Part shown: positions 23,886 through 56,100 of the stretch, one piece after another
Position numbering within the stretch: position 1 is the first letter of the stretch
Layout: each line of letters starts with the position of its first letter
Assembly: GCA_003116995.1 (NCBI GenBank)
Contig: BDSL01000120.1
Location: 1-64,000 of the forward strand
Direction of reading: 5' to 3'
Origin: Yamagishiella unicocca
Lineage: Eukaryota; Chlorophyta; Chlorophyceae; Chlamydomonadales; Volvocaceae
Length of the DNA: 64,000 nucleotides
The notes under the pieces: model-generated
Databases searched by the model: none
Seen by the model: only the letters and a program-made list of their open reading frames with translations
Told to the model about the DNA's origin: nothing
Program-made: the position numbers and the translations under genes

Positions 23886-24684
23886 TAGGTTCGGTTGCAA
23901 CACCACCGGTGGGTGGGCTTACTACCCCAGCATAGGTTCGGTTGCAACACCACCGGTGGGTGAGCTTACTACCCCAGCATAGATTCGGTTGCAACACCAC
24001 CGGTGGGTGGGCTTACTACCCCAGCATAGGTTCGGTTGCAACACCACCGGTGGGTGAGCTTACTACCCCAGCATAGATTCGGTTGCAACACCACCGGTGG
24101 GTGAGCTTACTACCCCAGCATAGATTCGGTTGCAACACCACCGGTGGGTGGGCTTACTACCCCAGCATAGGTTCGGTTGCAACACCACCGGTGGGTGGGC
24201 TTACTACCCCAGCATAGATTCGGTTGCAACACCACCGGTGGGTGAGCTTACTACCCCAGCATAGATTCGGTTGCAACACCACCGGTGGGTGGGCTTACTA
24301 CCCCAGCATAGGTTCGGTTGCAACACCACCGGTGGGTGAGCTTACTACCCCAGCATAGGTTCGGTTGCAACACCACCGGTGGGTGAGCTTACTACCCCAG
24401 CATAGATTCGGTTGCAACACCACCGGTGGGTGAGCTTACTACCCCAGCATAGATTCGGTTGCAACACCACCGGTGGGTGGGCTTACTACCCCAGCATAGG
24501 TTCGGTTGCAACACCACCGGTGGGTGAGCTTACTACCCCAGCATAGATTCGGTTGCAACACCACCGGTGGGTGAGCTTACTACCCCAGCATAGATTCGGT
24601 TGCAACACCACCGGTGGGTGGGCTTACTACCCCAGCATAGGTTCGGTTGCAACACCACCGGTGGGTGAGCTTACTACCCCAGCA
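23886..24684 (+). repeat. 47-bp satellite, 17 exact-length copies
   Basis: Seventeen consecutive 47-bp units fill 799 bp with no length change. Each contains TTCGGTTGCAACACCACCGG and TTACTACCCCAGCA. Only two positions vary, both G/A: TAGGTTCGG or TAGATTCGG, and GTGGGCTT or GTGAGCTT. The combinations recur as a trimer (A,A / A,G / G,A), most clearly in units 12-17, so the array has a 141-bp higher-order period. Confidence 0.95.
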
Positions 24685-32000: not shown

Positions 32001-32198
32001 ACTGCGTTTCGCGGCATGACCGGCAATTAACGACGACGACGGCTCACCCCGTCAAAGTACGACATGGCATCCTCGGGACTGCCGAACAGCCCCGTCAGTG
32101 AGAGCCCCGTGGTGGGCGGCGAGGCTATGGTGCAGTTGAAGCCGGGCGCCAGCAGAGTCAAGCTGCCCACGCCGTTCAGGGCGATCAGCACGAAGGAC
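29005..32198 (-). repeat. Tandem triplication of a two-exon globular module
   Basis: Exon pairs 32198-32048/31669-31404, 30871-30721/30344-30079 and 29731-29581/29214-29005 encode the same module. The first exon is exactly 151 nt in all three copies. The second is 266 nt in the first two copies, so each full module is 417 nt, or 139 residues. Intron flanks are also shared: TACCGTTTGTACGACGCACG precedes the exon in copies two and three. The last copy diverges after TPELGCDF and ends at the stop, lacking the Pro-rich tail with NDTSLGRR and FGPNDC. Confidence 0.9.
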
Positions 32199-35100
32199 CT
32201 GTCAAGGCGGGGGGCGGAGGGGGGAGGGGGGAGGTGGAGGCGCTGGCAACCTAAGCGTCGTGCCAAGAGACACGTGCGGGGGCCGTCTGGAGGCCTAAGA
32301 CTGTGTTTCGGGGGGCTGGGGTATGAGAGGATAGCCCGTGGTGGGTTTTGAGGCAAGACCCGTGGTGGGGCAGGGTGGGGTGGTGGGGCGGGTGGTGAGG
32401 AGCCGGCGGCCGGGTAGGGTGGGTGGTTGTATTGGGGGCGAGCGTACTCTAGGCGCGTGCGGGTGAACCTGTAGGACGAAGTCGTTTGAGACCCGCAGCT
32501 GGCCGCAACCCCCGGGCGGTCGAGAAACGGAGAGCTGCGCCTTCCAGCCCCCTGCCCCAAACCCTGCTTCCAGCCCCCGGCCCCAACTGCCACCTGCACC
32601 GCCCTCACCACCTTCGCCCCCGGCCCCAGCTTCCATACCCTCCCCAGCCGGAACGTGGTGTTCGTGGGAAGTAGCTACGGGTGTGGGTGCGTTGCGATGT
32701 AGTGGAGAGCAACCGCATTCGACCAGACATCAAGCAAATCGGATGAACTTGTCGATGAACGAACCAAAGGAAGCAACCCCCCCCCCGCAATACATCTCCA
32801 ACCCCACTTGACCCGACGCCAAGCACACCGTTTTGCAACCGGAAGTCAAGCGTGCAGACCCATGGCTCGTATGCAGACCCATGGCTCGTATGCAGGAGTA
32901 TGAGGCTGCGTGTGGAAGGAAAAACCGGTTGAAGCGGCCTGGGTTTGGGATGCGCGACAAACGAGCTTGCTGAGGAAGGGTGTGGTGATGCGGTGTTTGG
33001 GGGTTCCCCTGAGTCGGGTTCCGGATCCCCTGACTCGGGTTCCGGATCCCCTGAGTCGGGTTCCGGATCCCCTGAGTCGGGTTCCGGATCCCCTGAGTCG
33101 GGTTCCGGATCCTCCCTGAGTCGGGTTCCGGATCCCCTCTGAGTCGGGTTCCGGATCCCCTGAGTCGGGTTCCGGATCCCCTGAGTCGGGTTCCGGATCC
33201 CCTCTGAGTCGGGTTCCGGATCCCCTGAGTTGAGGATCCCCTGCGGAACATGGCATGGTTCGAAGCTGCCCGGCTCGTACCTGCAGTCGTTGGGACCGAA
33301 GACATCGACTCTGTTGGTGTTGACTGCTATCTTGACGCGCCGACCATAAGAGGTATCGTTGCCTGGTGGCGGTCGTGGCGGGAGAGGCGGCGACGGAGGC
33401 GATGGGGGTGGCGATGGTGGAGAAGGAGGAGACGGCGGAGGGGATGGCGGCGGTGAGGGAGAGGGCGGCTCTGGCGGCGGCGACGGCGGCGACGGCGGCG
33501 GAGGAGGCGATGGAGGCGGTGATGGTGGTGATGGCGGTGACGGCGGCGGCGATGGTGGTGAGGGCGGTGCAGGTGGCAGCGGAGGCGGTGCCGGCGGCGA
33601 AGGCGGCATCGGGGGCGGCGAGGGTGGTGAGGGAGGTTGAGGAGGTGAAGGAGGCGGCGACGGTGATGGAGGCGGCGACGGCGGCTCTGGCGGCGGCGAG
33701 GGTGGCGATGGCGGCGGTGAAGGAGATGGCGGCGGGGATGGCGGCGGTGAGGGAGAGGGCGGCTCTGGCGGCGGCGACGGCGGCGGAGGAGGCGATGGAG
33801 GCGGTGATGGTGGTGATGGCGGCGATGGTGGCGGCGATGGTGGTGAGGGCGGTGCAGGTGGCAGCGGAGGCGGTGCCGGCGGCGAAGGTGGCATCGGGGG
33901 CGGCGATGGTGGTGAGGGAGGTTGAGGAGGTGAAGGAGGCGGCGACGGTGATGGAGGCGGCGACGGCGGCTCTGGTGGCGGCGAGGGTGGCGACGGCGGC
34001 GGTGAAGGAGACGGCGGCGGGGATGGTGGCGGTGAGGGAGAGGGCGGCTCTGGCGGCGGCGACGGCGGCGACGGCGGCGGAGGAGGCGATGGAGGAGGTG
34101 ATGGTGGTGATGGCGGCGATGGTGGCGGCGATGGTGGTGAGGGCGGTGCAGGTGGCAGCGGAGGCGGTGCCGGCGGCGAAGGTGGCATCGGGGGCGGCGA
34201 TGGTGGTGAGGGAGGTTGAGGAGGTGAAGGAGGCGGCGACGGAGATGGAGGCGGCGACGGCGGCTCTGGCGGCGGCGACGGCGGTGATGGAGGAGGTGGG
34301 GGCGACGGTGGCGGGGATGGCGGCGGTGAGGGAGAGGGCGGCTCTGGCGGCGGCGACGGCGGCGACGGCGGCGGAGGAGGCGATGGAGGCGGTGATGGTG
34401 GTGATGGCGGTGACGGCGGCGGCGATGGTGGTGAAGGCGGTGCAGGTGGCAGCGGAGGCGGTGCCGGCGGCGAAGGTGGCATCGGGGGCGGCGAGGGTGG
34501 TGAAGGAGGTTGAGGAGGTGAAGGAGGCGGCGACGGTGATGGAGGCGGCGACGGCGGCTCTGGTGGCGACGAGGGTGGCGACGGCGGCGGTGAAGGAGAC
34601 GGCGGCGGGGATGGCGGCGGTGAGGGAGAGGGCGGCTCTGGCGGCGGCGACGGCGGCGACGGCGGCGGAGGAGGCGATGGAGGCGGTGATGGTGGTGATG
34701 GCGGTGACGGCGGCGGCGATGGTGGTGAGGGCGGTGCAGGTGGCAGCGGAGGCGGTGCCGGCGGCGAAGGTGGCATCGGGGGCGGCGATGGTGGTGAGGG
34801 AGGTTGAGGAGGTGAAGGAGGCGGCGACGGAGATGGAGGCGGCGACGGCGGCTCTGGCGGCGGCGAGGGTGGCGATGGCGGCGGTGAAGGAGATGGCGGC
34901 GGGGATGGCGGCGGTGAGGGAGAGGGCGGCTCTGGCGGCGGCGACGGCGGCGGAGGAGGCGATGGAGGCGGTGATGGTGGTGATGGCGGCGATGGTGGCG
35001 GCGATGGTGGTGAGGGCGGTGCAGGTGGCAGCGGAGGCGGTGCCGGCGGCGAAGGTGGCATCGGGGGCGGCGATGGTGGTGAGGGAGGTTGAGGAGGTGA

Positions 35101-38100
35101 AGGAGGCGGCGACGGTGATGGAGGCGGCGACGGCGGCTCTGGTGGCGGCGAGGGTGGCGACGGCGGCGGTGAAGGAGACGGCGGCGGGGATGGCGGCGGT
35201 GAGGGAGAGGGCGGCTCTGGCGGCGGCGACGGCGGCGACGGCGGCGGAGGAGGCGATGGAGGCGGTGATGGTGGTGATGGCGGTGACGGCGGCGGCGATG
35301 GTGGTGAGGGCGGTGCAGGTGGCAGCGGAGGCGGTGCCGGCGGCGAAGGTGGCATCGGGGGCGGCGATGGTGGTGAGGGAGGTTGAGGAGGTGAAGGAGG
35401 CGGCGACGGTGATGGAGGCGGCGACGGCGGCTCTGGTGGCGGCGAGGGTGGCGACGGCGGCGGTGAAGGAGACGGCGGCGGGGATGGTGGCGGTGAGGGA
35501 GAGGGCGGCTCTGGCGGCGGCGACGGCGGCGACGGCGGCGGAGGAGGCGATGGAGGCGGTGATGGTGGTGATGGCGGCGATGGTGGCGGCGATGGTGGTG
35601 AGGGCGGTGCAGGTGGCAGCGGAGGCGGTGCCGGCGGCGAAGGTGGCATCGGGGGCGGCGATGGTGGTGAGGGAGGTTGAGGAGGTGAAGGAGGCGGCGA
35701 CGGTGATGGAGGCGGCGACGGCGGCTCTGGTGGCGGCGAGGGTGGCGACGGCGGCGGTGAAGGAGACGGCGGCGGGGATGGCGGCGGTGAGGGAGAGGGC
35801 GGCTCTGGCAGCGGCGACGGCGGCGACGGCGGCGGAGGAGGCGATGGAGGCGGTGATGGTGGTGATGGCGGCGATGGTGGCGGCGATGGTGGTGAGGGCG
35901 GTGCAGGTGGCAGCGGAGGCGGTGCCGGCGGCGAAGGTGGCATGGGGGGCGGCGATGGTGGTGAGGGAGGTTGAGGAGGTGAAGGAGGCGGCGACGGTGA
36001 TGGAGGCGGCGACGGCGGCTCTGGCGGCGGCGAGGGTGGCGACGGCGGCGGTGAAGGAGACGGCGGCGGGGATGGCGGCGGTGGAGGAGATGGCGGCTCT
36101 GGCGGCGGCGACGGGGGCGACGGCGGAGGAGGAGGCGATGGAGGCGGTGATGGTGGTGATGGCGGTGACGGCGGCGGCGATGGTGGTGAAGGCGGTGCAG
36201 GTGGCAGCGGAGGCGGTGCCGGCGGCGAAGGTGGCATCGGGGGCGGCGATGGTGGTGAGGGAGGTTGAGGAGGTGAAGGAGGCGGCGACGGTGATGGAGG
36301 CGGCGACGGCGGCTCTGGTGGCGGCGAGGGTGGCGACGGCGGCGGTGAAGGAGACGGCGGCGGGGATGGCGGCGGTGAGGGAGAGGGCGGCTCTGGCGGC
36401 GGCGACGGCGGCGACGGCGGCGGAGGAGGCGATGGAGGCGGTGATGGTGGTGATGGCGGCGATGGTGGCGGCGATGGTGGTGAGGGCGGTGCAGGTGGCA
36501 GCGGAGGCGGTGCCGGCGGCGAAGGTGGCATGGGGGGCGGCGATGGTGGTGAGGGAGGTTGAGGAGGTGAAGGAGGCGGCGACGGTGATGGAGGCGGCGA
36601 CGGCGGCTCTGGCGGCGGCGAGGGTGGCGACGGCGGCGGTGAAGGAGACGGCGGCAAGGATGGCGGCGGTGGAGGAGATGGCGGCTCTGGCGGCGGCGAC
36701 GGGGGCGACGGCGGAGGAGGAGGCGATGGAGGCGGTGATGGTGGTGATGGCGGTGACGGCGGCGGCGATGGTGGTGAAGGCGGTGCAGGTGGCAGCGGAG
36801 GCGGTGCCGGCGGCGAAGGTGGCATCGGGGGCGGCGATGGTGGTGAGGGAGGTTGAGGAGGTGAAGGAGGCGGCGACGGTGATGGAGGCGGCGACGGCGG
36901 CTCTGGTGGCGGCGAGGGTGGCGACGGCGGCGGTGAAGGAGACGGCGGCGGGGATGGCGGCGGTGAGGGAGAGGGCGGCTCTGGCGGCGGCGACGGCGGC
37001 GACGGCGGCGGAGGAGGCGATGGAGGCGGTGATGGTGGTGATGGCGGCGATGGTGGCGGCGATGGTGGTGAGGGCGGTGCAGGTGGCAGCGGAGGCGGTG
37101 CCGGCGGCGAAGGTGGCATCGGGGGCGGCGATGGTGGTGAGGGAGGTTGAGGAGGTGAAGGAGGCGGCGACGGTGATGGAGGCGGCGACGGCGGCTCTGG
37201 CGGCGGCGAGGGTGGCGACGGCGGCGGTGAAGGAGACGGCGGCGGGGATGGCGGCGGTGAGGGAGAGGGCGGCTCTGGCGGCGGCGACGGGGGCGACGGC
37301 GGAGGAGGAGGCGATGGAGGCGGTGATGGTGGTGATGGCGGTGACGGCGGCGGCGATGGTGGTGAAGGCGGTGCAGGTGGCATCGGAGGCGGTGCCGGCG
37401 GCGAAGGTGGCATCGGGGGCGGCGATGGTGGTGAGGGAGGTTGAGGAGGTGAAGGAGGCGGCGACGGTGATGGAGGCGGCGACGGCGGCTCTGGTGGCGG
37501 CGAGGGTGGCGACGGCGGCGGTGAAGGAGACGGCGGCGGGGATGGTGGCGGTGAGGGAGAGGGCGGCTCTGGCGGCGGCGACGGCGGCGACGGCGGCGGA
37601 GGAGGCGATGGAGGCGGTGATGGTGGTGATGGCGGTGACGGCGGCGGCGATGGTGGTGAGGGCGGTGCAGGTGGCAGCGGAGGCGGTGCCGGCGGCGAAG
37701 GTGGCATGGGGGGCGGCGATGGTGGTGAGGGAGGTTGAGGAGGTGAAGGAGGCGGCGACGGTGATGGAGGCGGCGACGGCGGCTCTGGCGGCGGCGAGGG
37801 TGGCGACGGCGGCGGTGAAGGAGACGGCGGCGGGGATGGCGGCGGTGGAGGAGATGGCGGCTCTGGCGGCGGCGACGGGGGCGACGGCGGAGGAGGAGGC
37901 GATGGAGGCGGTGATGGTGGTGATGGCGGTGACGGCGGCGGCGATGGTGGTGAAGGCGGTGCAGGTGGCAGCGGAGGCGGTGCCGGCGGCGAAGGTGGCA
38001 TCGGGGGCGGCGATGGTGGTGAGGGAGGTTGAGGAGGTGAAGGAGGCGGCGACGGTGATGGAGGCGGCGACGGCGGCTCTGGTGGCGGCGAGGGTGGCGA

Positions 38101-41100
38101 CGGCGGCGGTGAAGGAGACGGCGGCGGGGATGGCGGCGGTGAGGGAGAGGGCGGCTCTGGCGGCGGCGACGGCGGCGACGGCGGCGGAGGAGGCGATGGA
38201 GGCGGTGATGGTGGTGATGGCGGCGATGGTGGCGGCGATGGTGGTGAGGGCGGTGCAGGTGGCAGCGGAGGCGGTGCCGGCGGCGAAGGTGGCATCGGGG
38301 GCGGCGATGCTGGTGAGGGAGGTTGAGGAGGTGAAGGAGGCGGCGACGGTGATGGAGGCGGCGACGGCGGCTCTGGTGGCGGCGAGGGTGGCGACGGCGG
38401 CGGTGAAGGAGACGGCGGCGGGGATGGTGGCGGTGAGGGAGAGGGCGGCTCTGGCGGCGGCGACGGCGGCGACGGCGGAGGAGGAGGCGATGGAGGCGGT
38501 GATGGTGGTGATGGCGGTGACGGCGGCGGCGATGGTGGTGAGGGCGGTGCAGGTGGCATCGGAGGCGGTGCCGGCGGCGAAGGTGGCATCGGGGGCGGCG
38601 ATGGTGGTGAGGGAGGTTGAGGAGGTGAAGGAGGCGGCGACGGTGATGGAGGCGGCGACGGCGGCTCTGGTGGCGGCGAGGGTGGCGACGGCGGCGGTGA
38701 AGGAGACGGCGGCGGGGATGGTGGCGGTGAGGGAGAGGGCGGCTCTGGCGGCGGCGACGACGGGGACGGCGGCGGAGGAGGCGATGGAGGCGGTGATGGT
38801 GGTGATGGCGGCGATGGTGGCGGCGATGGTGGTGAGGGCGGTGCAGGTGGCAGCGGAGGCGGTGCCGGCGGCGAAGGTGGCATCGGGGGCGGCGATGGTG
38901 GTGAGGGAGGTTGAGGAGGTGAAGGAGGCGGCGACGGTGATGGAGGCGGCGACGGCGGCTCTGGTGGCGGCGAGGGTGGCGATGGCGGCGGTGAAGGAGA
39001 CGGCGGCGGGGATGGCGGCGGTGGAGGAGATGGCGGCTCTGGCGGCGGCGACGGGGGCGACGGCGGAGGAGGAGGCGATGGAGGCGGTGATGGTGGTGAT
39101 GGCGGTGACGGCAGCGGCGATGGTGGTGAAGGCGGTGCAGGTGGCAGCGGAGGCGGTGCCGGCGGCGAAGGTGGCATCGGGGGCGGCGATGGTGGTGAGG
39201 GAGGTTGAGGAGGTGAAGGAGGCGGCGACGGTGATGGAGGCGGCGACGGCGGCTCTGGTGGCGGCGAGGGTGGCGACGGCGGCGGTGAAGGAGACGGCGG
39301 CGGGGATGGTGGCGGTGAGGGAGAGGGCGGCTCTGGCGGCGGCGACGGCGGCGACGGCGGCGGAGGAGGCCATGGAGGAGGTGATGGTGGTGATGGCGGC
39401 GATGGTGGCGGCGATGGTGGTGAGGGCGGTGCAGGTGGCAGCGGAGGCGGTGCCGGCGGCGAAGGTGGCATCGGGGGCGGCGAGGGTGGTGAGGGAGGTT
39501 GAGGAGGTGAAGGAGGCGGCGACGGTGATGGAGGCGGCGACGGCGGCTCTGGTGGCGGCGAGGGTGGCGACGGCGGCGGTGAAGGAGACGGCGGCGGGGA
39601 TGGTGGCGGTGAGGGAGAGGGCGGCTCTGGCGGCGGCGACGACGGGGACGGCGGCGGAGGAGGCGATGGAGGCGGTGATGGTGGTGATGGCGGCGATGGT
39701 GGCGGCGATGGTGGTGAGGGCGGTGCAGGTGGCAGCGGAGGCGGTGCCGGCGGCGAAGGTGGCATCGGGGGCGGCGATGGTGGTGAGGGAGGTTGAGGAG
39801 GTGAAGGAGGCGGCGACGGTGATGGAGGCGGCGACGGCGGCTCTGGTGGCGGCGAGGGTGGCGATGGCGGCGGTGAAGGAGACGGCGGCGGGGATGGCGG
39901 CGGTGGAGGAGATGGCGGCTCTGGCGGCGGCGACGGGGGCGACGGCGGAGGAGGAGGCGATGGAGGCGGTGATGGTGGTGATGGCGGTGACGGCAGCGGC
40001 GATGGTGGTGAAGGCGGTGCAGGTGGCAGCGGAGGCGGTGCCGGCGGCGAAGGTGGCATCGGGGGCGGCGATGGTGGTGAGGGAGGTTGAGGAGGTGAAG
40101 GAGGCGGCGACGGTGATGGAGGCGGCGACGGCGGCTCTGGTGGCGGCGAGGGTGGCGACGGCGGCGGTGAAGGAGACGGCGGCGGGGATGGTGGCGGTGA
40201 GGGAGAGGGCGGCTCTGGCGGCGGCGACGGCGGCGACGGCGGCGGAGGAGGCCATGGAGGAGGTGATGGTGGTGATGGCGGCGATGGTGGCGGCGATGGT
40301 GGTGAGGGCGGTGCAGGTGGCAGCGGAGGCGGTGCCGGCGGCGAAGGTGGCATCGGGGGCGGCGATGGTGGTGAGGGAGGTTGAGGAGGTGAAGGAGGCG
40401 GCGACGGTGATGGAGGCGGCGACGGCGGCTCTGGTGGCGGCGACGGCGGTGATGGAGGAGGTGGGGGCGACGGCGGCAGGGATGGCGGCGGTGAGGGAGA
40501 GGGCGGCTCTGGCGGCGGCGACGGCGGCGACGGCGGCAGAGGAGGCGATGGAGGCGGTGATGGTGGTGATGGCGGTGACGGCGGTGGCGATGGTGGTGAA
40601 GGCGGTGCAGGTGGCAGCGGAGGCGGTGCCGGCGGCGAAGGTGGCATCGGGGGCGGCGATGGTGGTGAGGGAGGTTGAGGAGGTGAAGGAGGCGGCGACG
40701 GTGATGGAGGCGGCGACGGCGGCTCTGGTGGCGGCGAGGGTGGCGACGGCGGCGGTGAAGGAGACGGCGGCGGGGATGGCGGCGGTGAGGGAGAGGGCGG
40801 CTCTGGCGGCGGCGACGGCGGCGACGGCGGCGGAGGAGGCGATGGAGGCGGTGATGGTGGTGATGGCGGTGACGGCGGCGGCGATGGTGGTGAAGGCGGT
40901 GCAGGTGGCAGCGGAGGCGGTGCCGGCGGCGAAGGTGGCATCGGGGGCGGCGAGGGTGGTGAAGGAGGTTGAGGAGGTGAAGGAGGCGGCGACGGTGATG
41001 GAGGCGGCGACGGCGGCTCTGGCGGCGGCGAGGGTGGCGATGGCGGTGGTGAAGGAGACGGCGGCGGGGATGGCGGCGGTGAGGGAGAGGGCGGCTCTGG

Positions 41101-44100
41101 CGGCGGCGACGGCGGCGACGGCGGCGGAGGAGGCGATGGAGGCGGTGATGGTGGTGATGGCGGCGACGGCGGCGGCGATGGTGGTGAGGGCGGTGCTGGG
41201 GGCAGCGGAGGCGGTGCCGGTGGCGAAGGCGGCATCGGGGGCGGCGATGGTGGTGAGGGAGGTTGAGGAGGTGAAGGAGGCGGCGACGGTGATGGAGGCG
41301 GCGACGGCGGCTCTGGTGGCGGCGAGGGTGGCGACGGCGGCGGTGAAGGAGACGGCGGCGGGGATGGCGGCGGTGAGGGAGAGGGCGGCTCTGGCGGCGG
41401 CGACGGCGGCGACGGCGGCGGAGGAGGCGATGGAGGCGGTGATGGTGGTGATGGCGGTGACGGCGGCGGCGATGGTGGTGAAGGCGGTGCAGGTGGCAGC
41501 GGAGGCGGTGCCGGCGGCGAAGGTGGCATCGGGGGCGGCGAGGGTGGTGAAGGAGGTTGAGGAGGTGAAGGAGGCGGCGACGGTGATGGAGGCGGCGACG
41601 GCGGCTCTGGCGGCGGCGAGGGTGGCGATGGCGGCGGTGAAGGAGACGGCGGCGGGGATGGCGGCGGTGAGGGAGAGGGCGGCTCTGGCGGCGGCGACGG
41701 CGGCGACGGCGGCGGAGGAGGCGATGGAGGCGGTGATGGTGGTGATGGCGGCGACGGCGGCGGCGATGGTGGTGAGGGCGGTGCTGGGGGCAGCGGAGGC
41801 GGTGCCGGTGGCGAAGGCGGCATCGGGGGCGGCGATGGTGGTGAGGGAGGTTGAGGAGGTGAAGGAGGCGGCGACGGTGATGGAGGCGGCGACGGCGGCT
41901 CTGGTGGCGGCGAGGGTGGCGACGGCGGCGGTGAAGGAGACGGCGGCGGGGATGGTGGCGGTGAGGGAGAGGGCGGCTCTGGCGGCGGCGACGGCGGCGA
42001 CGGCGGCGGAGGAGGCGATGGAGGCGGTGATGGTGGTGATGGCGGCGATGGTGGCGGCGATGGTGGTGAGGGCGGTGCAGGTGGCAGCGGAGGCGGTGCC
42101 GGCGGCGAAGGTGGCATGGGGGCGGCGATGGTGGTGAGGGAGGTTGAGGAGGTGAAGGAGGCGGCGACGGTGATGGAGGCGGCGACGGCGGCTCTGGCGG
42201 CGGCGAGGGTGGCGACGGCGGCGGTGAAGGAGACGGCGGCGGGGATGGCGGCGGTGGAGGAGATGGCGGCTCTGGCGGCGGCGACGGGGGCGACGGCGGA
42301 GGAGGAGGCGATGGAGGCGGTGATGGTGGTGATGGCGGTGACGGCGGCGGCGATGGTGGTGAAGGCGGTGCAGGTGGCAGCGGAGGCGGTGCCGGCGGCG
42401 AAGGTGGCATCGGGGGCGGCGATGGTGGTGAGGGAGGTTGAGGAGGTGAAGGAGGCGGCGACGGTGATGGAGGCGGCGACGGCGGCTCTGGTGGCGGCGA
42501 GGGTGGCGACGGCGGCGGTGAAGGAGACGGCGGCGGGGATGGCGGCGGTGAGGGAGAGGGCGGCTCTGGCGGCGGCGACGGCGGCGACGGCGGCGGAGGA
42601 GGCGATGGAGGCGGTGATGGTGGTGATGGCGGTGACGGCGGCGGCGATGGTGGTGAAGGCGGTGCAGGTGGCAGCGGAGGCGGTGCCGGCGGCGAAGGTG
42701 GCATCGGGGGCGGCGAGGGTGGTGAAGGAGGTTGAGGAGGTGAAGGAGGCGGCGACGGTGATGGAGGCGGCGACGGCGGCTCTGGCGGCGGCGAGGGTGG
42801 CGATGGCGGCGGTGAAGGAGACGGCGGCGGGGATGGCGGCGGTGAGGGAGAGGGCGGCTCTGGCGGCGGCGACGGCGGCGACGGCGGAGGAGGAGGCGAT
42901 GGAGGCGGTGATGGTGGTGATGGCGGTGACGGCGGCGGCGATGGTGGTGAGGGCGGTGCAGGTGGCATCGGAGGCGGTGCCGGCGGCGAAGGTGGCATCG
43001 GGGGCGGCGATGGTGGTGAGGGAGGTTGAGGAGGTGAAGGAGGCGGCGACGGAGATGGAGGCGGCGACGGCGGCTCTGGCGGCGGCGACGGCGGTGATGG
43101 AGGAGGTGGGGGCGACGGTGGCGGGGATGGCGGCGGTGAGGGAGAGGGCGGCTCTGGCGGCGGCGACGGCGGCGACGGCGGCGGAGGAGGCGATGGAGGC
43201 GGTGATGGTGGTGATGGCGGTGACGGCGGCGGCGATGGTGGTGAAGGCGGTGCAGGTGGCAGCGGAGGCGGTGCCGGCGGCGAAGGTGGCATCGGGGGCG
43301 GCGAGGGTGGTGAAGGAGGTTGAGGAGGTGAAGGAGGCGGCGACGGTGATGGAGGCGGCGACGGCGGCTCTGGCGGCGGCGAGGGTGGCGATGGCGGCGG
43401 TGAAGGAGACGGCGGCGGGGATGGCGGCGGTGAGGGAGAGGGCGGCTCTGGCGGCGGCGATGGCGGCGACGGCGGCGGCGGAGGCGATGGAGGCGGTGAT
43501 GGTGGTGATGGCGGCGACGGCGGCGGCGATGGTGGTGAGGGCGGTGCTGGGGGCAGCGGAGGCGGTGCCGGCGGCGAAGGCGGCATCGGGGGCGGAGAGG
43601 GTGGTGAGGGAGGTTGAGGAGGTGAAGGAGGCGGCGACGGTGATGGAGGCGGCGACGGCGGCTCTGGCGGCGGCGAGGGTGGCGACGGCGGGGGTGGAGG
43701 AGACGGTGGCGGGGAGGGCGGGGATGGAGGCGGCGGAGGCGGCGACGGCGGCGGTGGAGGAGATGGCGGTGACGGAGGCGGAGATGGAGGCGACGGCGGA
43801 GGTGGAGGCGACGGGGGCGGTGATGGAGGTGACGGAGGCGAAGGTGGCGGTGATGGGGGCAGCGGCGGGCTTGGAGGCAACGGAGGCGGTGATGGAGGCA
43901 ATGGCGGCGATGGAGGCGCCGGGGGCGGCGCTGGGGGCGACGGCGGCGACGGCGGCGGTGCCGGGGGCAATGGAGGAGACGGAGGCACTGGCGGCGGCGA
44001 CGGCGGTGATGGAGGAGGTGGGGGCGACGGTGGTGGGGATGGAGGGGATGGCGGCGACGGAGGCGGCGATGGAGGAGGTGGGGGAGAAGGCGGTAACGGA

Positions 44101-47100
44101 GGCGGTGACGGCGGCGACGGCGGCGGAGGAGGCGATGGAGGAGGTGATGGTGGTGATGGCGGCGACGGCGGCGGCGATGGTGGTGAGGGCGGTGCTGGGG
44201 GCAGCGGAGGCGGTGCCGGCGGCGAAGGCGGCATCGGGGGCGGAGAGGGTGGTGAGGGAGGTTGAGGAGGTGAAGGAGGCGGCGACGGTGATGGAGGCGG
44301 CGACGGCGGCTCTGGCGGCGGCGAGGGTGGCGACGGCGGCGGTGGAGGAGACGGTGGCGGGGAGGGCGGGGATGGAGGCGGCGGAGGCGGCGACGGCGGC
44401 GGTGGAGGAGATGGCGGTGACGGAGGCGGAGATGGAGGCGACGGCGGAGGTGGAGGCGACGGGGGCGGTGATGGAGGTGACGGAGGCGAAGGTGGCGGTG
44501 ATGGCGGCAGCGGCGGGCTTGGAGGCAACGGAGGCGGTGATGGAGGCAATGGCGGCGATGGAGGTGCCGGGGGCGGCGCTGGGGGCGACGGCGGCGACGG
44601 CGGCGGTGCCGGGGGCAATGGAGGAGACGGAGGCACTGGCGGCGGAGACGGCGGTGATGGAGGAGGTGGGGGCGATGGTGGTGGGGATGGAGGGGATGGC
44701 GGCGACGGAGGCGGCGATGGAGGAGGTGGGGGAGAAGGCGGTAACGGAGGCGGTGATGGCGGCGACGGTGGCGGAGGAGGCGATGGAGGAGGTGATGGTG
44801 GTGATGGCGGCGACGGCGGCGGCGATGGTGGTGAGGGCGGTGCTGGGGGCAGCGGAGGCGGTGCCGGCGGCGAAGGCGGCATCGGGGGCGGAGAGGGTGG
44901 TGAGGGAGGTTGAGGAGGTGAAGGAGGCGGCGACGGTGATGGAGGCGGCGACGGCGGCTCTGGCGGCGGCGAGGGTGGCGACGGCGGCGGTGGAGGAGAC
45001 GGTGGCGGGGAGGGCGGGGAAGGAGGCGGCGGAGGCGGCGACGGCGGCGGTGGAGGAGATGGCGGTGACGGAGGCGGAGATGGAGGCGACGGCGGAGGTG
45101 GAGGCGACGGGGGCGGTGATGGAGGTGACGGAGGCGAAGGTGGCGGTGATGGGGGCAGCGGCGGGCTTGGAGGCAACGGAGGCGGTGATGGAGGCAATGG
45201 CGGCGATGGAGGCGCCGGGGGCGGCGCTGGGGGCGACGGCGGCGACGGCGGCGGTGCCGGGGGCAATGGAGGAGACGGAGGCACTGGCGGCGGCGACGGC
45301 GGTGATGGAGGAGGTGGGGGCGACGGTGGTGGGGATGGAGGGGATGGCGGCGACGGAGGCGGTGATGGAGGGGGTGGGGGAGAAGGCGGTAACGGAGGCG
45401 GTGACGGCGGCGACGGCGGCGGAGGAGGCGATGGAGGAGGTGATGGTGGTGATGGCGGCGACGGCGGCGGCGATGGTGGTGAGGGCGGTGCTGGGGGCAG
45501 CGGAGGCGGTGCCGGCGGCGAAGGCGGCATCGGGGGCGGAGAGGGTGGTGAGGGAGGTTGAGGAGGTGAAGGAGGCGGCGACGGTGATGGAGGCGGCGAT
45601 GGCGGCTCTGGCGGCGGCGAGGGTGGCGACGGCGGCGGTGGAGGAGACGGTGGCGGGGAGGGCGGGGATGGAGGCGGCGGAGGCGGCGACGGCGGCGGTG
45701 GAGGAGATGGCGGTGACGGAGGCGGAGATGGAGGCGACGGCGGAGGTGGAGGCGACGGGGGCGGTGATGGAGGTGACGGAGGCGAAGGTGGCGGTGATGG
45801 CGGCAGCGGCGGGCTTGGAGGCAACGGAGGCGGTGATGGAGGCAATGGCGGCGATGGAGGTGCCGGGGGCGGCGCTGGGGGCGACGGCGGCGACGGCGGC
45901 GGTGCCGGGGGCAATGGAGGAGACGGAGGCACTGGCGGCGGAGACGGCGGTGATGGAGGAGGTGGGGGCGATGGTGGTGGGGATGGAGGGGATGGCGGCG
46001 ACGGAGGCGGCGATGGAGGAGGTGGGGGAGAAGGCGGTAACGGAGGCGGTGATGGCGGCGACGGTGGCGGAGGAGGCGATGGAGGAGGTGATGGTGGTGA
46101 TGGCGGCGACGGCGGCGGCGATGGTGGTGAGGGCGGTGCTGGGGGCAGCGGAGGCGGTGCCGGCGGCGAAGGCGGCATCGGGGGCGGAGAGGGTGGTGAG
46201 GGAGGTTGAGGAGGTGAAGGAGGCGGCGACGGTGATGGAGGCGGCGACGGCGGCTCTGGCGGCGGCGAGGGTGGCGACGGCGGCGGTGGAGGAGACGGTG
46301 GCGGGGAGGGCGGGGAAGGAGGCGGCGGAGGCGGCGACGGCGGCGGTGGAGGAGATGGCGGTGACGGAGGCGGAGATGGAGGCGACGGCGGAGGTGGAGG
46401 CGACGGGGGCGGTGATGGAGGTGACGGAGGCGAAGGTGGCGGTGATGGGGCAGCGGCGGGCTTGGAGGCAACGGAGGCGGTGATGGAGGCAATGGCGGCG
46501 ATGGAGGCGCCGGGGGCGGCGCTGGGGGCGACGGCGGCGACGGCGGCGGTGCCGGGGGCAATGGAGGAGACGGAGGCACTGGCGGCGGCGACGGCGGTGA
46601 TGGAGGAGGTGGGGGCGACGGTGGTGGGGATGGAGGGGATGGCGGCGACGGAGGCGGTGATGGAGGGGGTGGGGGAGAAGGCGGTAACGGAGGCGGTGAT
46701 GGCGGCGACGGCGGCGGAGGAGGCGATGGAGGAGGTGATGGTGGTGATGGCGGCGACGGCGGCGGCGATGGTGGTGAGGGCGGTGCTGGGGGCAGCGGAG
46801 GCGGTGCCGGCGGCGAAGGCGGCATCGGGTACGGAGAGGGTGGTGAGGGAGGTTGAGGAGGTGAAGGAGGCGGCGACGGTGATGGAGGCGGCGATGGTGG
46901 CTCTGGCGGCGGCGAGGGTGGCGACGGCGGCGGTGGAGGAGACGGTGGCGGGGAGGGCGGGGATGGAGGCGGCGGAGGCGGCGACGGCGGCGGTGGAGGA
47001 GATGGCGGTGACGGAGGCGGAGATGGAGGCGACGGCGGAGGTGGAGGCGACGGGGGCGGTGATGGAGGTGACGGACGCGAAGGTGGCGGTGATGGCGGCA

Positions 47101-50100
47101 GCGGCGGGCTTGGAGGCAACGGAGGCGGTGATGGAGGCAATGGCGGCGATGGAGGTGCCGGGGGCGGCGCTGGGGGCGACGGCGGCGACGGCGGCGGTGC
47201 CGGGGGCAATGGAGGAGACGGAGGCACTGGCGGCGGAGACGGCGGTGATGGAGGAGGTGGGGGCGATGGTGGTGGGGATGGAGGGGATGGCGGCGACGGA
47301 GGCGGCGATGGAGGAGGTGGGGGAGAAGGCGGTAACGGAGGCGGTGACGGTGGCGACGGCGGCGGAGGAGGCGATGGAGGCGGTGATGGTGGTGATGGCG
47401 GCGACGGCGGCGGCGATGGTGGTGAGGGCGGTGCTGGGGGCAGCGGAGGCGGTGCCGGCGGCGAAGGCGGCATCGGGGGCGGAGAGGGTGGTGAGGGAGG
47501 TTGAGGAGGTGAAGGAGGCGGCGACGGTGATGGAGGCGGCGACGGCGGCTCTGGCGGCGGAGAGGGTGGCGACGGCGGCGGTGGAGGAGACGGTGGCGGG
47601 GAGGGCGGGGATGGAGGCGGCGGAGGCGGCGACGGCGGCGGTGGAGGAGATGGCGGTGACGGAGGCGGAGATGGAGGCGACGGCGGAGGTGGAGGCGACG
47701 GGGGCGGTGATGGAGGTGACGGAGGCGAAGGTGGCGGTGATGGCGGCAGCGGCGGGCTTGGAGGCAACGGAGGCGGTGATGGAGGCAATGGCGGCGATGG
47801 AGGTGCCGGGGGCGGCGCTGGGGGCGACGGCGGCGACGGCGGCGGTGCCGGGGGCAATGGAGGAGACGGAGGCACTGGCGGCGGCGACGGCGGTGATGGA
47901 GGAGGTGGGGGCGATGGTGGTGGGGATGGAGGGGATGGCGGCGACGGAGGCGGCGATGGAGGAGGTGGGGGAGAAGGCGGTAACGGAGGCGGTGACGGCG
48001 GCGACGGCGGCGGAGGAGGCGATGGAGGAGGTGATGGTGGTGATGGCGGCGACGGCGGCGGCGATGGTGGTGAGGGCGGTGCTGGGGGCAGCGGAGGCGG
48101 TGCCGGCGGCGAAGGCGGCATCGGGGGCGGAGAGGGTGGTGAGGGAGGTTGAGGAGGTGAAGGAGGCGGCGACGGTGATGGAGGCGGCGATGGCGGCTCT
48201 GGCGGCGGCGAGGGTGGCGACGGCGGCGGTGGAGGAGACGGTGGCGGGGAGGGCGGGGATGGAGGCGGCGGAGGCGGCGACGGCGGCGGTGGAGGAGATG
48301 GCGGTGACGGAGGCGGAGATGGAGGCGACGGCGGAGGTGGAGGCGACGGGGGCGGTGATGGAGGTGACGGAGGCGAAGGTGGCGGTGATGGCGGCAGCGG
48401 CGGGCTTGGAGGCAACGGAGGCGGTGATGGAGGCAATGGCGGCGATGGAGGTGCCGGGGGCGGCGCTGGGGGCGACGGCGGCGACGGCGGCGGTGCCGGG
48501 GGCAATGGAGGAGACGGAGGCACTGGCGGCGGAGACGGCGGTGATGGAGGAGGTGGGGGCGATGGTGGTGGGGATGGAGGGGATGGCGGCGACGGAGGCG
48601 GCGATGGAGGAGGTGGGGGAGAAGGCGGTAACGGAGGCGGTGATGGCGGCGACGGTGGCGGAGGAGGCGATGGAGGAGGTGATGGTGGTGATGGCGGCGA
48701 CGGCGGCGGCGATGGTGGTGAGGGCGGTGCTGGGGGCAGCGGAGGCGGTGCCGGCGGCGAAGGCGGCATCGGGGGCGGAGAGGGTGGTGAGGGAGGTTGA
48801 GGAGGTGAAGGAGGCGGCGACGGTGATGGAGGCGGCGACGGCGGCTCTGGCGGCGGCGAGGGTGGCGACGGCGGCGGTGGAGGAGACGGTGGCGGGGAGG
48901 GCGGGGAAGGAGGCGGCGGAGGCGGCGACGGCGGCGGTGGAGGAGATGGCGGTGACGGAGGCGGAGATGGAGGCGACGGCGGAGGTGGAGGCGACGGGGG
49001 CGGTGATGGAGGTGACGGAGGCGAAGGTGGCGGTGATGGGGCAGCGGCGGGCTTGGAGGCAACGGAGGCGGTGATGGAGGCAATGGCGGCGATGGAGGCG
49101 CCGGGGGCGGCGCTGGGGGCGACGGCGGCGACGGCGGCGGTGCCGGGGGCAATGGAGGAGACGGAGGCACTGGCGGCGGCGACGGCGGTGATGGAGGAGG
49201 TGGGGGCGACGGTGGTGGGGATGGAGGGGATGGCGGCGACGGAGGCGGTGATGGAGGGGGTGGGGGAGAAGGCGGTAACGGAGGCGGTGATGGCGGCGAC
49301 GGCGGCGGAGGAGGCGATGGAGGAGGTGATGGTGGTGATGGCGGCGACGGCGGCGGCGATGGTGGTGAGGGCGGTGCTGGGGGCAGCGGAGGCGGTGCCG
49401 GCGGCGAAGGCGGCATCGGGTACGGAGAGGGTGGTGAGGGAGGTTGAGGAGGTGAAGGAGGCGGCGACGGTGATGGAGGCGGCGATGGCGGCTCTGGCGG
49501 CGGCGAGGGTGGCGACGGCGGCGGTGGAGGAGACGGTGGCGGGGAGGGCGGGGATGGAGGCGGCGGAGGCGGCGACGGCGGCGGTGGAGGAGATGGCGGT
49601 GACGGAGGCGGAGATGGAGGCGACGGCGGAGGTGGAGGCGACGGGGGCGGTGATGGAGGTGACGGAGGCGAAGGTGGCGGTGATTGCGGCAGCGGCGGGC
49701 TTGGAGGCAACGGAGGCGGTGATGGAGGCAATGGCGGCGATGGAGGTGCCGGGGGCGGCGCTGGGGGCGACGGCGGCGACGGCGGCGGTGCCGGGGGCAA
49801 TGGAGGAGACGGAGGCACTGGCGGCGGCGACGGCGGTGATGGAGGAGGTGGGGGCGATGGTGGTGGGGATGGAGGGGATGGCGGCGACGGAGGCGGCGAT
49901 GGAGGAGGTGGGGAGAAGGCGGTAACGGAGGCGGTGACGGTGGCGACGGCGGCGGAGGAGGCGATGGAGGCGGTGATGGTGGTGATGGCGGCGACGGCGG
50001 CGGCGATGGTGGTGAGGGCGGTGCTGGGGGCAGCGGAGGCGGTGCCGGCGGCGAAGGCGGCATCGGGGCGGAGAGGGTGGTGAGGGAGGTTGAGGAGGTG

Positions 50101-53100
50101 AAGGAGGCGGCGACGGTGATGGAGGCGGCGACGGCGGCTCTGGCGGCGGAGAGGGTGGCGACGGCGGCGGTGGAGGAGACGGTGGCGGGGAGGGCGGGGA
50201 TGGAGGCGGCGGAGGCGGCGACGGCGGCGGTGGAGGAGATGGCGGTGACGGAGGCGGAGATGGAGGCGACGGCGGAGGTGGAGGCGACGGGGGCGGTGAT
50301 GGAGGTGACGGAGGCGAAGGTGGCGGTGATGGCGGCAGCGGCGGGCTTGGAGGCAACGGAGGCGGTGATGGAGGCAATGGCGGCGATGGAGGTGCCGGGG
50401 GCGGCGCTGGGGGCGACGGCGGCGACGGCGGCGGTGCCGGGGGCAATGGAGGAGACGGAGGCACTGGCGGCGGCGACGGCGGTGATGGAGGAGGTGGGGG
50501 CGATGGTGGTGGGGATGGAGGGGATGGCGGCGACGGAGGCGGCGATGGAGGAGGTGGGGGAGAAGGCGGTAACGGAGGCGGTGACGGCGGCGACGGCGGC
50601 GGAGGAGGCGATGGAGGAGGTGATGGTGGTGATGGCGGCGACGGCGGCGGCGATGGTGGTGAGGGCGGTGCTGGGGGCAGCGGAGGCGGTGCCGGCGGCG
50701 AAGGCGGCATCGGGGGCGGAGAGGGTGGTGAGGGAGGTTGAGGAGGTGAAGGAGGCGGCGACGGTGATGGAGGCGGCGACGGCGGCTCTGGCGGCGGCGA
50801 GGGTGGCGACGGCGGCGGTGGAGGAGACGGTGGCGGGGAGGGCGGGGATGGAGGCGGCGGAGGCGGCGACGGCGGCGGTGGAGGAGATGGCGGTGACGGA
50901 GGCGGAGATGGAGGCGACGGCGGAGGTGGAGGCGACGGGGGCGGTGATGGAGGTGACGGAGGCGAAGGTGGCGGTGATGGCGGCAGCGGCGGGCTTGGAG
51001 GCAACGGAGGCGGTGATGGAGGCAATGGCGGCGATGGAGGTGCCGGGGGCGGCGCTGGGGGCGACGGCGGCGACGGCGGCGGTGCCGGGGGCAATGGAGG
51101 AGACGGAGGCACTGGCGGCGGCGACGGCGGTGATGGAGGAGGTGGGGGCGATGGTGGTGGGGATGGAGGGGATGGCGGCGACGGAGGCGGCGATGGAGGA
51201 GGTGGGGGAGAAGGCGGTAACGGAGGCGGTGACGGCGGCGACGGCGGCGGAGGAGGCGATGGAGGAGGTGATGGTGGTGATGGCGGCGACGGCGGCGGCG
51301 ATGGTGGTGAGGGCGGTGCTGGGGGCAGCGGAGGCGGTGCCGGCGGCGAAGGCGGCATCGGGGGCGGAGGGGTGGTGAGGGAGGTTGAGGAGGTGAAGGA
51401 GGCGGCGACGGTGATGGAGGCGGCGACGGCGGCTCTGGCGGCGGCGAGGGTGGCGACGGCGGCGGTGGAGGAGACGGTGGCGGGGAGGGCGGGGATGGAG
51501 GCGGCGGAGGCGGCGACGGCGGCGGTGGAGGAGATGGCGGTGACGGAGGCGGAGATGGAGGCGACGGCGGAGGTGGAGGCGACGGGGGCGGTGATGGAGG
51601 TGACGGAGGCGAAGGTGGCGGTGATGGCGGCAGCGGCGGGCTTGGAGGCAACGGAGGCGGTGATGGAGGCAATGGCGGCGATGGAGGTGCCGGGGGCGGC
51701 GCTGGGGGCGACGGCGGCGACGGCGGCGGTGCCGGGGGCAATGGAGGAGACGGAGGCACTGGCGGCGGAGACGGCGGTGATGGAGGAGGTGGGGGCGATG
51801 GTGGTGGGGATGGAGGGGATGGCGGCGACGGAGGCGGCGATGGAGGAGGTGGGGGAGAAGGCGGTAACGGAGGCGGTGACGGCGGCGACGGCGGCGGAGG
51901 AGGCGATGGAGGAGGTGATGGTGGTGATGGCGGCGACGGCGGCGGCGATGGTGGTGAGGGCGGTGCTGGGGGCAGCGGAGGCGGTGCCGGCGGCGAAGGC
52001 GGCATCGGGGGCGGAGAGGGTGGTGAGGGAGGTTGAGGAGGTGAAGGAGGCGGCGACGGTGATGGAGGCGGCGACGGCGGCTCTGGCGGCGGCGAGGGTG
52101 GCGACGGCGGCGGTGGAGGAGACGGTGGCGGGGAGGGCGGGGATGGAGGCGGCGGAGGCGGCGACGGCGGCGGTGGAGGAGATGGCGGTGACGGAGGCGG
52201 AGATGGAGGCGACGGCGGAGGTGGAGGCGACGGGGGCGGTGATGGAGGTGACGGAGGCGAAGGTGGCGGTGATGGGGGCAGCGGCGGGCTTGGAGGCAAC
52301 GGAGGCGGTGATGGAGGCAATGGCGGCGATGGAGGTGCCGGGGGCGGCGCTGGGGGCGACGGCGGCGACGGCGGCGGTGCCGGGGGCAATGGAGGAGACG
52401 GAGGCACTGGCGGCGGCGACGGCGGTGATGGAGGAGGTGGGGGCGATGGTGGTGGGGATGGAGGGGATGGCGGCGACGGAGGCGGCGATGGAGGAGGTGG
52501 GGGAGAAGGCGGTAACGGAGGCGGTGACGGCGGCGACGGCGGCGGAGGAGGCGATGGAGGAGGTGATGGTGGTGATGGCGGCGACGGCGGCGGCGATGGT
52601 GGTGAGGGCGGTGCTGGGGGCAGCGGAGGCGGTGCCGGCGGCGAAGGCGGCATCGGGGGCGGAGAGGGTGGTGAGGGAGGTTGAGGAGGTGAAGGAGGCG
52701 GCGACGGTGATGGAGGCGGCGACGGCGGCTCTGGCGGCGGCGAGGGTGGCGACGGCGGCGGTGGAGGAGACGGTGGCGGGGAGGGCGGGGATGGAGGCGG
52801 CGGAGGCGGCGACGGCGGCGGTGGAGGAGATGGCGGTGACGGAGGCGGAGATGGAGGCGACGGCGGAGGTGGAGGCGACGGGGGCGGTGATGGAGGTGAC
52901 GGAGGCGAAGGTGGCGGTGATGGCGGCAGCGGCGGGCTTGGAGGCAACGGAGGCGGTGATGGAGGCAATGGCGGCGATGGAGGTGCCGGGGGCGGCGCTG
53001 GGGGCGACGGCGGCGACGGCGGCGGTGCCGGGGGCAATGGAGGAGACGGAGGCACTGGCGGCGGCGACGGCGGTGATGGAGGAGGTGGGGGCGATGGTGG

Positions 53101-56100
53101 TGGGGATGGAGGGGATGGCGGCGACGGAGGCGGCGATGGAGGAGGTGGGGGAGAAGGCGGTAACGGAGGCGGTGACGGCGGCGACGGCGGCGGAGGAGGC
53201 GATGGAGGAGGTGATGGTGGTGATGGCGGCGACGGCGGCGGCGATGGTGGTGAGGGCGGTGCTGGGGGCAGCGGAGGCGGTGCCGGCGGCGAAGGCGGCA
53301 TCGGGGGCGGAGGGGTGGTGAGGGAGGTTGAGGAGGTGAAGGAGGCGGCGACGGTGATGGAGGCGGCGACGGCGGCTCTGGCGGCGGCGAGGGTGGCGAC
53401 GGCGGCGGTGGAGGAGACGGTGGCGGGGAGGGCGGGGATGGAGGCGGCGGAGGCGGCGACGGCGGCGGTGGAGGAGATGGCGGTGACGGAGGCGGAGATG
53501 GAGGCGACGGCGGAGGTGGAGGCGACGGGGGCGGTGATGGAGGTGACGGAGGCGAAGGTGGCGGTGATGGCGGCAGCGGCGGGCTTGGAGGCAACGGAGG
53601 CGGTGATGGAGGCAATGGCGGCGATGGAGGTGCCGGGGGCGGCGCTGGGGGCGACGGCGGCGACGGCGGCGGTGCCGGGGGCAATGGAGGAGACGGAGGC
53701 ACTGGCGGCGGCGATGGCGGTGATGGAGGAGGTGGGGGCGATGGTGGTGGGGATGGAGGGGATGGCGGCGACGGAGGCGGCGATGGAGGAGGTGGGGGAG
53801 AAGGCGGTAACGGAGGCGGTGACGGCGGCGACGGCGGCGGAGGAGGCGATGGAGGAGGTGATGGTGGTGATGGCGGCGACGGCGGCGGCGATGGTGGTGA
53901 GGGCGGTGCTGGGGGCAGCGGAGGCGGTGCCGGCGGCGAAGGCGGCATCGGGGGCGGAGAGGGTGGTGAGGGAGGTTGAGGAGGTGAAGGAGGCGGCGAC
54001 GGTGATGGAGGCGGCGACGGCGGCTCTGGCGGCGGCGAGGGTGGCGACGGCGGCGGTGGAGGAGACGGTGGCGGGGAGGGCGGGGATGGAGGCGGCGGAG
54101 GCGGCGACGGCGGCGGTGGAGGAGATGGCGGTGACGGAGGCGGAGATGGAGGCGACGGCGGAGGTGGAGGCGACGGGGGCGGTGATGGAGGTGACGGAGG
54201 CGAAGGTGGCGGTGATGGCGGCAGCGGCGGGCTTGGAGGCAACGGAGGCGGTGATGGAGGCAATGGCGGCGATGGAGGTGCCGGGGGCGGCGCGGGGGGC
54301 GACGGCGGCGGTGGTGGTGGCCGCGGTGGCAAAGGTGGCGGTGGCAGCGGTGGCGACGACGGTTGTGACCGCGGCGGCGATGGCGGCGGTGGGGGCGGCC
54401 GCGGCGGCCATGGGGGAGGCGGCGATGGTGTCGTAGGGTTGTATGAATCATCTGGGGGGGGCATGTAGTCTGCTGCGGGCGCTTCTGGTTGGCAGGGCGG
54501 GGGCGGCAGCTTCTTCGGCGGACGGGGTGTCCGTCGTGGAGGGGGACGGGGTGGCGGAATGGGCGGCAGGGGCGGCGGTGGTGGAGGCGATTGATATCCA
54601 CCTTGTGGCCGGGGGGGCCGGGGCGGCCGGGGCGGCGGCGGCGGCGGCCGATCCATCTGCGGCGCCAGCGGCCTGTGTGGCAACCGAGTTTGGTGGAGGG
54701 GGCAGCGGACGGGGGGCAGGGGAAGGGAGAGAGAGAGTCAAGTGGTGGATGCATAAAGGGGGAAGGTAGCTGGAGCGAGGGCAGGGCCGGGGTGGGGGGC
54801 CCAATTGGGGCTGAAACAAGGGCAAAGCACCTCTCCCAAGGCCAGGGGGGTGGAAAGGCTGAAGGGCGGGTGGCAGGGCGGGGGCGGGAGCCTATGAGCC
54901 GAGCCCCGCCCCCAGTTGCCGTGTGGGCTTAAGAAGGTGCGCAAAGACTCGTGTACTCGTGTGTGTTTTGTGTTACACGGTGGCTTGCATGTCAGCCCTC
55001 ATGTCCACCACACACGACGAGCCCCCACGAGCCCAAGGCTCAAGAGCAGCCAGCAGCTGTCAGCAAAACGATCTCCAGGAAACAAAAAAGCGTGTGAAAA
55101 AGTAAGACGGAGCTGCGCGCCTAACGATCGTCCAACTGCCAGAACGAACTCGAGCTCGTCCAACCCTCAGAGCGGCGGCCTCCCTCATTGCTCGTGCCGC
55201 CGTACAGGGAAACCGTTGCAACAACTGTCGCCGTACGGTATTCGTGCCCCGGCGCCAATAACGCGGCTCCGATACAATCACGCCACCGCCTTCCCAACGC
55301 CGTTGGAACGGTTTCACAGAGTACCGACCCAACCGACATGTGTCACCCCTCCGCCCATGGGCTGCTGCAACCGCGGCATACACGCTCGCGCCCGTACGCC
55401 TGCAGCACACATAACCCCTCACCACACACGGAAAAACACACGTTCAACCCATGACAAGCGCCGTACATCGGTACGGCGGAAGGTGACGCGCGCAGATCCT
55501 GCTTGCTCATCTAACTTTACATATTTCATGCACGATCTTGACGCGTCATGTACGACATGTCAGGAACACGTGACCTTGTACGGGCTACGTCACGCGCACC
55601 CCGCCTTGCCCGCCGACGCACCCTTCCCCGCCACCACCTACAAGTCAGGCGGCGGCGGCGGCATCTCCTCCGGGGGGTGAGCGCATGGCTCGGACGGCGG
55701 CGGCGGCGGCGGCGGCGCCTGCATCTCCTCCGGGGGATGGGCGGATGGCTCGGACGGCGGCGGCGGCGGCGGCGGCGGCTTGCGCGGCCTCGGTGGCTTG
55801 TGGCCCCTCGGCGGCGGCGGCGCATCGGGCCCTGCAGGACACCAAGGGTGGACCCGTAGTGCGAGGGCGGTGGGGGCTGGGTGAGGATGGATTCGAAGGA
55901 GGAGGAGGAGGAGGAGGGGAGGTGGATTCGAAAGAAGAGGTGGTCTCCGCCGGGTAGTTGTGTTTTGCGGCGGAGGCGCCGATGGCTCGCACCGCCGGCA
56001 ACACTACACCTAGGGCCGCCGCTGACGATATGTACGGCATGTACGACCGATTCCCAGCAGGGCACACGCCGTCTCCGCACCACGTCCCGCGGTTTGGGAC

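Follow-up and report, generated by a model that had tools for sequence, protein, structure and literature searches.

A candidate volvocine matrix glycoprotein gene with a greatly expanded proline/serine rod exon in Yamagishiella unicocca

The first 64,000 nucleotides (nt) of contig BDSL01000120.1 from the colonial green alga Yamagishiella unicocca (assembly GCA_003116995.1; hereafter the window) contain a proline/serine repeat of more than 20 kb on the minus strand. The question raised by this locus is whether the repeat encodes the rod of a single, exceptionally large protein or whether it is something else that lies between two sets of coding exons. The preferred reading, to which a probability of roughly 0.78 is given, is a gene for a secreted, dumbbell-shaped, hydroxyproline-rich matrix glycoprotein of approx. 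8,660 residues, an orthologue of Chlamydomonas reinhardtii CHLRE_07g332901v5 with an expanded rod. The predicted protein would comprise a three-domain Cys-rich head, a rod of approx. 7,100 residues and three tandem Cys-containing tail domains.

The rod exon extends from 54672 to 33281 on the minus strand (21,392 nt) and is bounded by the acceptor ACACAG and the donor GTACGA. It opens irregularly with RPPRPPRPQGGYQSPP..., upstream of two arrays, and closes with the start of tail domain 1 (NDTSYGRR...GPNDCR), the first 27 residues of which thus lie within the rod exon, 3' of the arrays. Parsing with 51 anchors yielded 50 unit intervals, namely, 16 of 647/648 nt and 34 of 293/294/285 nt. Along the gene, the longer units come first (43587..53948; 16 units of 648 nt or 216 codons, six of them with a one-base loss), followed by the shorter ones (33610..43586; 34 units of 294 nt or 98 codons). 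Of the shorter units, one has lost a single base and two lack 9 nt without a change of frame. Each period is divisible by three. The rod reaches approx. 7,100 residues once seven lost bases are restored. Its arrays consist almost entirely of Pro and Ser, with 4,896 and 1,457 of 6,855 positions (71% and 21%), respectively. Cys is absent, charged residues amount to 85 acidic and one basic, and 97% of the array prolines sit in blocks of at least two.

Upstream of the rod exon, ten exons provide 1,130 codons without a stop, and the last of them ends in the phase that the rod exon requires. Within the window the exon chain adds up to 24,684 nt with the seven bases restored, corresponding to 8,228 codons, or approx. 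8,227 after the last exon is trimmed to its stop. The first exon lies outside the window (contig 66322-65027) and encodes the N-terminus and a hydrophobic segment. With this exon the whole protein would have approx. 8,661 residues, a value obtained by arithmetic with the seven bases restored and a guessed first ATG. The hydrophobic stretch precedes the head, but it stands behind a long N-terminal extension, as judged from the translation.

Three proteins of unicellular relatives carry both ends of this gene, namely, C. reinhardtii CHLRE_07g332901v5 (P0011; 1,428 amino acids, aa), C. schloesseri HYH02_009757 (P0009) and C. incerta HXX76_003564 (P0013). All three share 54-56% identity with the head over 449-456 aa, plus 56% over a further 113 aa. 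In tblastn searches their matches run colinearly along the contig from approx. 64008 to 29053 and flank the rod on either side. For the window gene, head, rod and tail are taken to be joined on the strength of splice sites and phase. The orthologues resemble the window gene in head sequence, domain order, position of the rod and tail domain. They differ in the rod, which has 314, 274 and 152 irregular residues in P0011, P0009 and P0013, respectively, compared to approx. 7,100 regular ones, a more than 20-fold difference in length. The preliminary description of this locus had proposed one uninterrupted rod exon flanked by Cys-containing globular exons, with seven one-base losses and 8,228 residues in the window. 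The rod exon and its splice sites, the spliced coding exons on either side together with orthologues that join the same head and tail, the parse in the Pro frame and the codon count agree with it on these points.

The window gene has three copies of the tail domain (29005-33360, minus strand), the later ones being 87-93% identical to the first, whereas the three orthologues have one. Two copies are found in a paralogue on another contig (C101) of the same genome, the only other gene found by the tail-domain search (2 of 11 matches). This paralogue is one uninterrupted frame of 1,279 aa with a rod of 282 residues and the same layout; head domain 1 and the tail were matched by tblastn, head domain 3 by alignment and head domain 2 by position alone. 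Its tail domain is 29-31% identical to that of the window gene. The C101 frame forms a paralogous group with CHLRE_16g680790v5, Pleodorina PLESTB_000708000, Astrephomene Agub_g9628 and Edaphochlamys HYH03_007403. The five members are laid out like the window gene and have rods of 276-337 aa, as opposed to approx. 7,100 residues. Identity of head domain 1 between the window gene and this group is 41% for C101 and 37% for C. reinhardtii. Across the family, the tail-domain cysteines C26, C49, C95 and C123 are invariant in all nine aligned sequences, and the rods of nine members range from 152 to 337 aa.

The array is free of stop triplets in every frame. All three minus frames are open for more than 7,100 codons and the plus strand also has long open frames. 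Since the three minus frames are stop-free alike, the open reading frame of the array is an effect of composition, and open frames were rejected as proof of coding. Variation between units is more informative. In the Pro frame, 34 of 45 single-base variant codons among 32 units of 294 nt were synonymous and 11 were not, a count made without the pair of 95-codon units and the incomplete last one. Among the 16 units of 648 nt the figures were 16 of 20 and 4; one of these four coincides with a loss site, and the ratio becomes 16 to 3 when it is left out. Pooled, 50 of 65 variants were synonymous, compared to about a third expected from codon opportunity (binomial p 3e-13). At NCG codons, silent G>A changes at position 3 outnumbered replacing C>T changes at position 2 by 18 to 4 (p 0.004), in a hand count from the variant list that takes the majority codon as the older one. 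Variants private to one unit made up 9 of 18 non-synonymous and 8 of 50 synonymous codons (p 0.009, multi-base variants included). Exchange between units makes the variants non-independent, which limits the test of synonymous bias.

Several observations weigh against the reading of one large rod gene, and the alternatives have to be judged with them. The donor of the last exon upstream of the rod (GTAGGT after CTT) is weak, and an unspliced transcript would run into a stop. The head could end at the TAG just after 55642, with rod and tail forming a separate and possibly untranslated unit. The in-frame TAG stands directly behind the Pro-rich exon, and an ATG (MDRPPPPPP) is available near the start of the rod exon. 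Translation from that ATG, however, would give a rod with no evident signal peptide; the weak donor lies in exactly the phase that the rod needs, and a single predicted protein spans head, rod and tail in each of three Chlamydomonas species, as does a single frame in the C101 paralogue. Two genes are therefore considered very improbable. Retention of the intron after 55831-55642 would end the protein at the TAG at 55640-55638 and give a short head-only form of approx. 1,131 aa.

The second point concerns the repeat unit itself. Seven loci that were read elsewhere in the genome also contain the 294-nt unit, at 86-95% identity. Only the Pro-rich part of these loci matches the rod, and short matches elsewhere in the window are to other repeats. 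Long flanking sequences are common to the loci. With one such flank of 901 nt, 40 matching places were found at 86-100% identity, counting the locus of origin. This dispersed family carries, in the loci that were read (L036-L042, L009), blocks of the 98-codon unit of the rod. The dispersed copies also show the same synonymous bias, with 154 synonymous and 26 non-synonymous variants in 13 distinct units (reduced from 15 by dropping repeated identical ones). They thus failed as a neutral control, and the bias is not private to the rod gene and may in part be inherited. The array might be a minisatellite without coding function, which a mobile repeat has spread and which lies in an intron, so that the true transcript skips it; the unit's presence in a dispersed repeat family on many other contigs and the compositional nature of the open frames are in keeping with this. 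On the other side, the orthologues carry a Pro-rich rod at exactly this place, the first residues of the tail domain are encoded in the rod exon downstream of the array, the Pro frame is synonymously biased and both periods preserve the frame. A skipped minisatellite is regarded as very improbable.

The direction of transfer between rod and repeat was approached with a midpoint-rooted tree of approx. 231-nt unit cores. The subfamily L037-L040 and L009 falls among the 294-nt rod units, in a tree for which support was not assessed. For each dispersed locus, the 294-nt rod units lie closer than do the loci of the other subfamily (L036, L041, L042). The direction therefore leans from the rod to the repeat, and the unit may have been captured from the rod by the dispersed family. 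An earlier unit tree was dropped as it mixed registers. A frame in one locus (L036:9381-9998) had no match in Pfam but might resemble a tyrosine recombinase.

The third point is the reading frame. In the Pro-frame parse of the rod exon, one-base losses were located near 53315, 51372, 50068, 49916, 49044, 46453 and 42116, while two further shifts at 33363 and 33296 turned out to be parse artefacts in the non-Pro tail of the exon. When read literally, with no bases restored, the frame ends at 33329 with 8,245 aa and does not reach the tail domains. The losses could be real, in which case the gene would have decayed recently or would encode a frame-shifted protein of approx. 8,245 aa without tail domains. 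In two cases a pair of different units shares a loss at the same position, as expected from inheritance; such losses would break the frame if real and inherited. With all three frames free of stops, a shifted chain would still be made. The type of change, however, argues for another origin. All seven are single-base deletions in C-rich stretches, and the aligned units show four C5->C4, one C6->C5 and two identical CCCTCT->CCCCT changes, the latter possibly a loss of T rather than C. At each of the five plain C5/C6 contractions, the full C run is intact in other units whose haplotype is identical or almost so. No insertion was found among the 50 aligned units, and the sole other length change is the 9-nt deletion in two units. 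The head and tail exons are open, and the synonymous bias again speaks for a maintained Pro frame. The loss rate counts against an origin by error. Long C runs in the array have lost a base in 7 of 196 cases, or in 5 of 194 if the two CCCTCT changes are set aside, and none of 46 long C or G runs has done so among the unique exons of gene and paralogue; the difference is not significant (p 0.35). According to PMC6123790, the assembly of the plus strain was built from PacBio RS II data (17.2 Gb in 2.5 M subreads) with HGAP3 and corrected with mapped 150-bp Illumina reads. The pattern is what a repeat that could not be polished in a PacBio RS II/HGAP3 assembly would look like, and the losses are probably sequencing errors. 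Real losses are held to be improbable.

The same data bear on the length of the rod. The mean subread was approx. 6.9 kb (17.2 Gb/2.5 M) against an array of 21 kb, and the number of units may err in either direction. A rod that is real but has a wrong unit number, through duplication or collapse in the assembly, and is in truth much shorter or longer, overlaps with the preferred reading. Identity between units reaches 100% over stretches longer than one unit, as in the pairs that start at 49416 and 46825, which would allow such an error. The many distinct unit haplotypes stand in a definite order, however, and both flanks are coding exons of the rod gene, with no evident chimera. An assembly artefact is thus judged unlikely, although it retains appreciable weight.

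One further point weighs against the reading in general, for a gene predicted from genome sequence. A close orthologue in a colonial species was not found in a search among proteins of approx. 749-2,383 aa, in which longer ones were not visible. This search returned only the three Chlamydomonas species and a more distant protein (P0012, eukprot gene31387-6545_t; 37%). The latter is a public gene model in which a related head is seemingly fused to a PF01145 domain, possibly a merged prediction.

The exons around the rod, all on the minus strand, support the gene model to different degrees. Head exon 2 (63877..64000, running on to contig 64008) was identified by its translation and by tblastn with P0011 (52% identity over 64008-63877). 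Head exon 3 (62296..62748) encodes domain 1 (NGRLYVTL...YYSCYTLSVDL) with 55-56% identity to the three orthologues. Head exon 4 (60847..60921) had no tblastn match of its own; it is open through its splices, with the acceptor ACCCAG and a weak donor GTCCAG. Head exon 5 (60264..60331; TGVQEFRMPDC) matches TGNVGVQEFILPDC of P0011 by eye. A short Pro linker, domain 2 and a second Pro linker make up head exon 6 (59175..59900; 56-58% identity to the three Chlamydomonas orthologues). Domain 3 starts in head exon 7 (58737..58823; 52-55% identity), continues in head exon 8 (57266..57399; 45-50%) and ends in head exon 9 (56183..56413; RRLQLPCGSR; 68-70%). It is followed by the irregular Pro-rich exon (55642..55831), which had no tblastn match of its own and whose donor GTAGGT leads to the rod. 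Behind the rod exon, the middle exon of tail domain 1 lies at 32048..32198 (50-56% identity to the orthologues). The exon with the end of tail domain 1 and the start of tail domain 2 (31404..31669), the middle exon of tail domain 2 (30721..30871), the exon with the end of tail domain 2 and the start of tail domain 3 (30079..30344) and the middle exon of tail domain 3 (29581..29731) were all matched by tblastn with the orthologues. The last exon (29005..29214) contains, by its translation, the end of tail domain 3 and the stop TAA (29007-29005). Further repeats were seen in the window, namely, a 21-bp tandem repeat of 10.5 copies at 33005-33230 in the intron right after the rod exon, a long run of imperfect CTG/CCG-type repeats in the intron between two head exons (57,420-57,900, minus strand) and a minisatellite of 47 bp with 17 copies and 97% matches at 23886-24686.

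If the gene is read as one large rod protein, its history can be outlined. In its orthologue CHLRE_07g332901v5, an irregular rod of approx. 314 residues connects the same head with a single tail domain. The repeat unit would have arisen in, or arrived inside, the rod in the Yamagishiella lineage, and the rod would then have grown by duplication of whole units. In the expressed, spliced and secreted protein, prolines would carry hydroxyl groups and arabinose, and the chain would form a stiff polyproline-II rod of approx. 2 µm. Both ends might bind or cross-link partners in the colony matrix. With a rise of 0.31 nm per residue, 7,106 residues would extend over 2.2 µm. The micrometre scale of the preliminary description is thus matched by arithmetic. 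The product is most likely a secreted, micrometre-scale hydroxyproline rod, as predicted from its sequence. A further proposal is put forward tentatively, and we would rather doubt than believe it as a whole: a single polypeptide of more than 8,000 residues might form a rod of approx. 2 µm that bridges matrix compartments or neighbouring cells, its length might change by whole 98- or 216-residue units, and the unit might have passed between the gene and a dispersed, mobile-like repeat.

Such a gene would strain ordinary limits, with a coding sequence of approx. 26 kb that consists mostly of proline codons. If made, the protein would place a heavy demand on polyproline translation and on the secretion of a micrometre-long rigid chain. 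Within one orthogroup, rods of 152-314 residues in three unicellular species stand against approx. 7,100 in a colonial one. Given this wide range, the effect of rod length becomes testable in a single gene. No report of a volvocine rod of such length was found in a literature search that covered few subscription papers and no supplements.

Compared to known systems, the window protein resembles the pherophorins (PF12499) of Volvox and Chlamydomonas in its dumbbell shape, with two globular regions parted by a Pro-rich rod of varying length, and a role in the matrix is expected for both. In PMC9818292, rod length is said to set pherophorin family members clearly apart, and the hydroxyproline-rich domain averages 89 aa in the proteins of Volvox carteri and 181 aa in those of C. 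reinhardtii; the earlier statement that the rod lies far beyond the usual range holds against these means. The globular domains, in contrast, are unrelated by Pfam and profile comparison. PF12499 was not matched in any of the seven proteins or pieces scanned (a window head piece with domains 2 and 3, a window tail piece, P0001, P0011, P0009, P0004 and P0002; head domain 1 was covered only via the full-length relatives), while the same genome (133,378,104 bases in 1,415 contigs) contains 161 PF12499 matches. Against the genome's own pherophorin domains, hhalign gave probabilities of 0.35% for the tail domain, 0.42% for head domain 1 and 0.11% for head domain 3 (three of the four domain types). 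Profile comparison does relate the tail domain to head domain 3 (95.3%, E 2e-8). The predicted secondary structure differs as well, the C101 tail domain being modelled as mixed alpha/beta (predicted local distance difference test score, pLDDT, 91.8) and the pherophorin domain as mostly strands (pLDDT 80.8). Thus, the label "Pherophorin domain-containing" that several relatives bear in UniProt is not borne out by Pfam, profile and model tests. Of the pherophorin likeness drawn in the preliminary description, the dumbbell outline stands and the family membership does not; judged by sequence and models, the protein appears to be a member of a different family of volvocine matrix glycoproteins. 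Another Pro-rich frame of great length in the genome (C50:342494-332160, minus strand; 3,445 aa, 30% Pro) does contain a PF12499 match, and a further Pro-rich frame, of at least 2,129 aa, runs on past 352899.

The sexual agglutinins SAG1/SAD1 and the wall protein GP1 of Chlamydomonas have long polyproline-II shafts with globular ends, the shafts not being known to exceed a few hundred nanometres. The window protein would share this layout. Set beside these systems and its own orthologues, the Yamagishiella rod is a real, extreme expansion within a known architecture.

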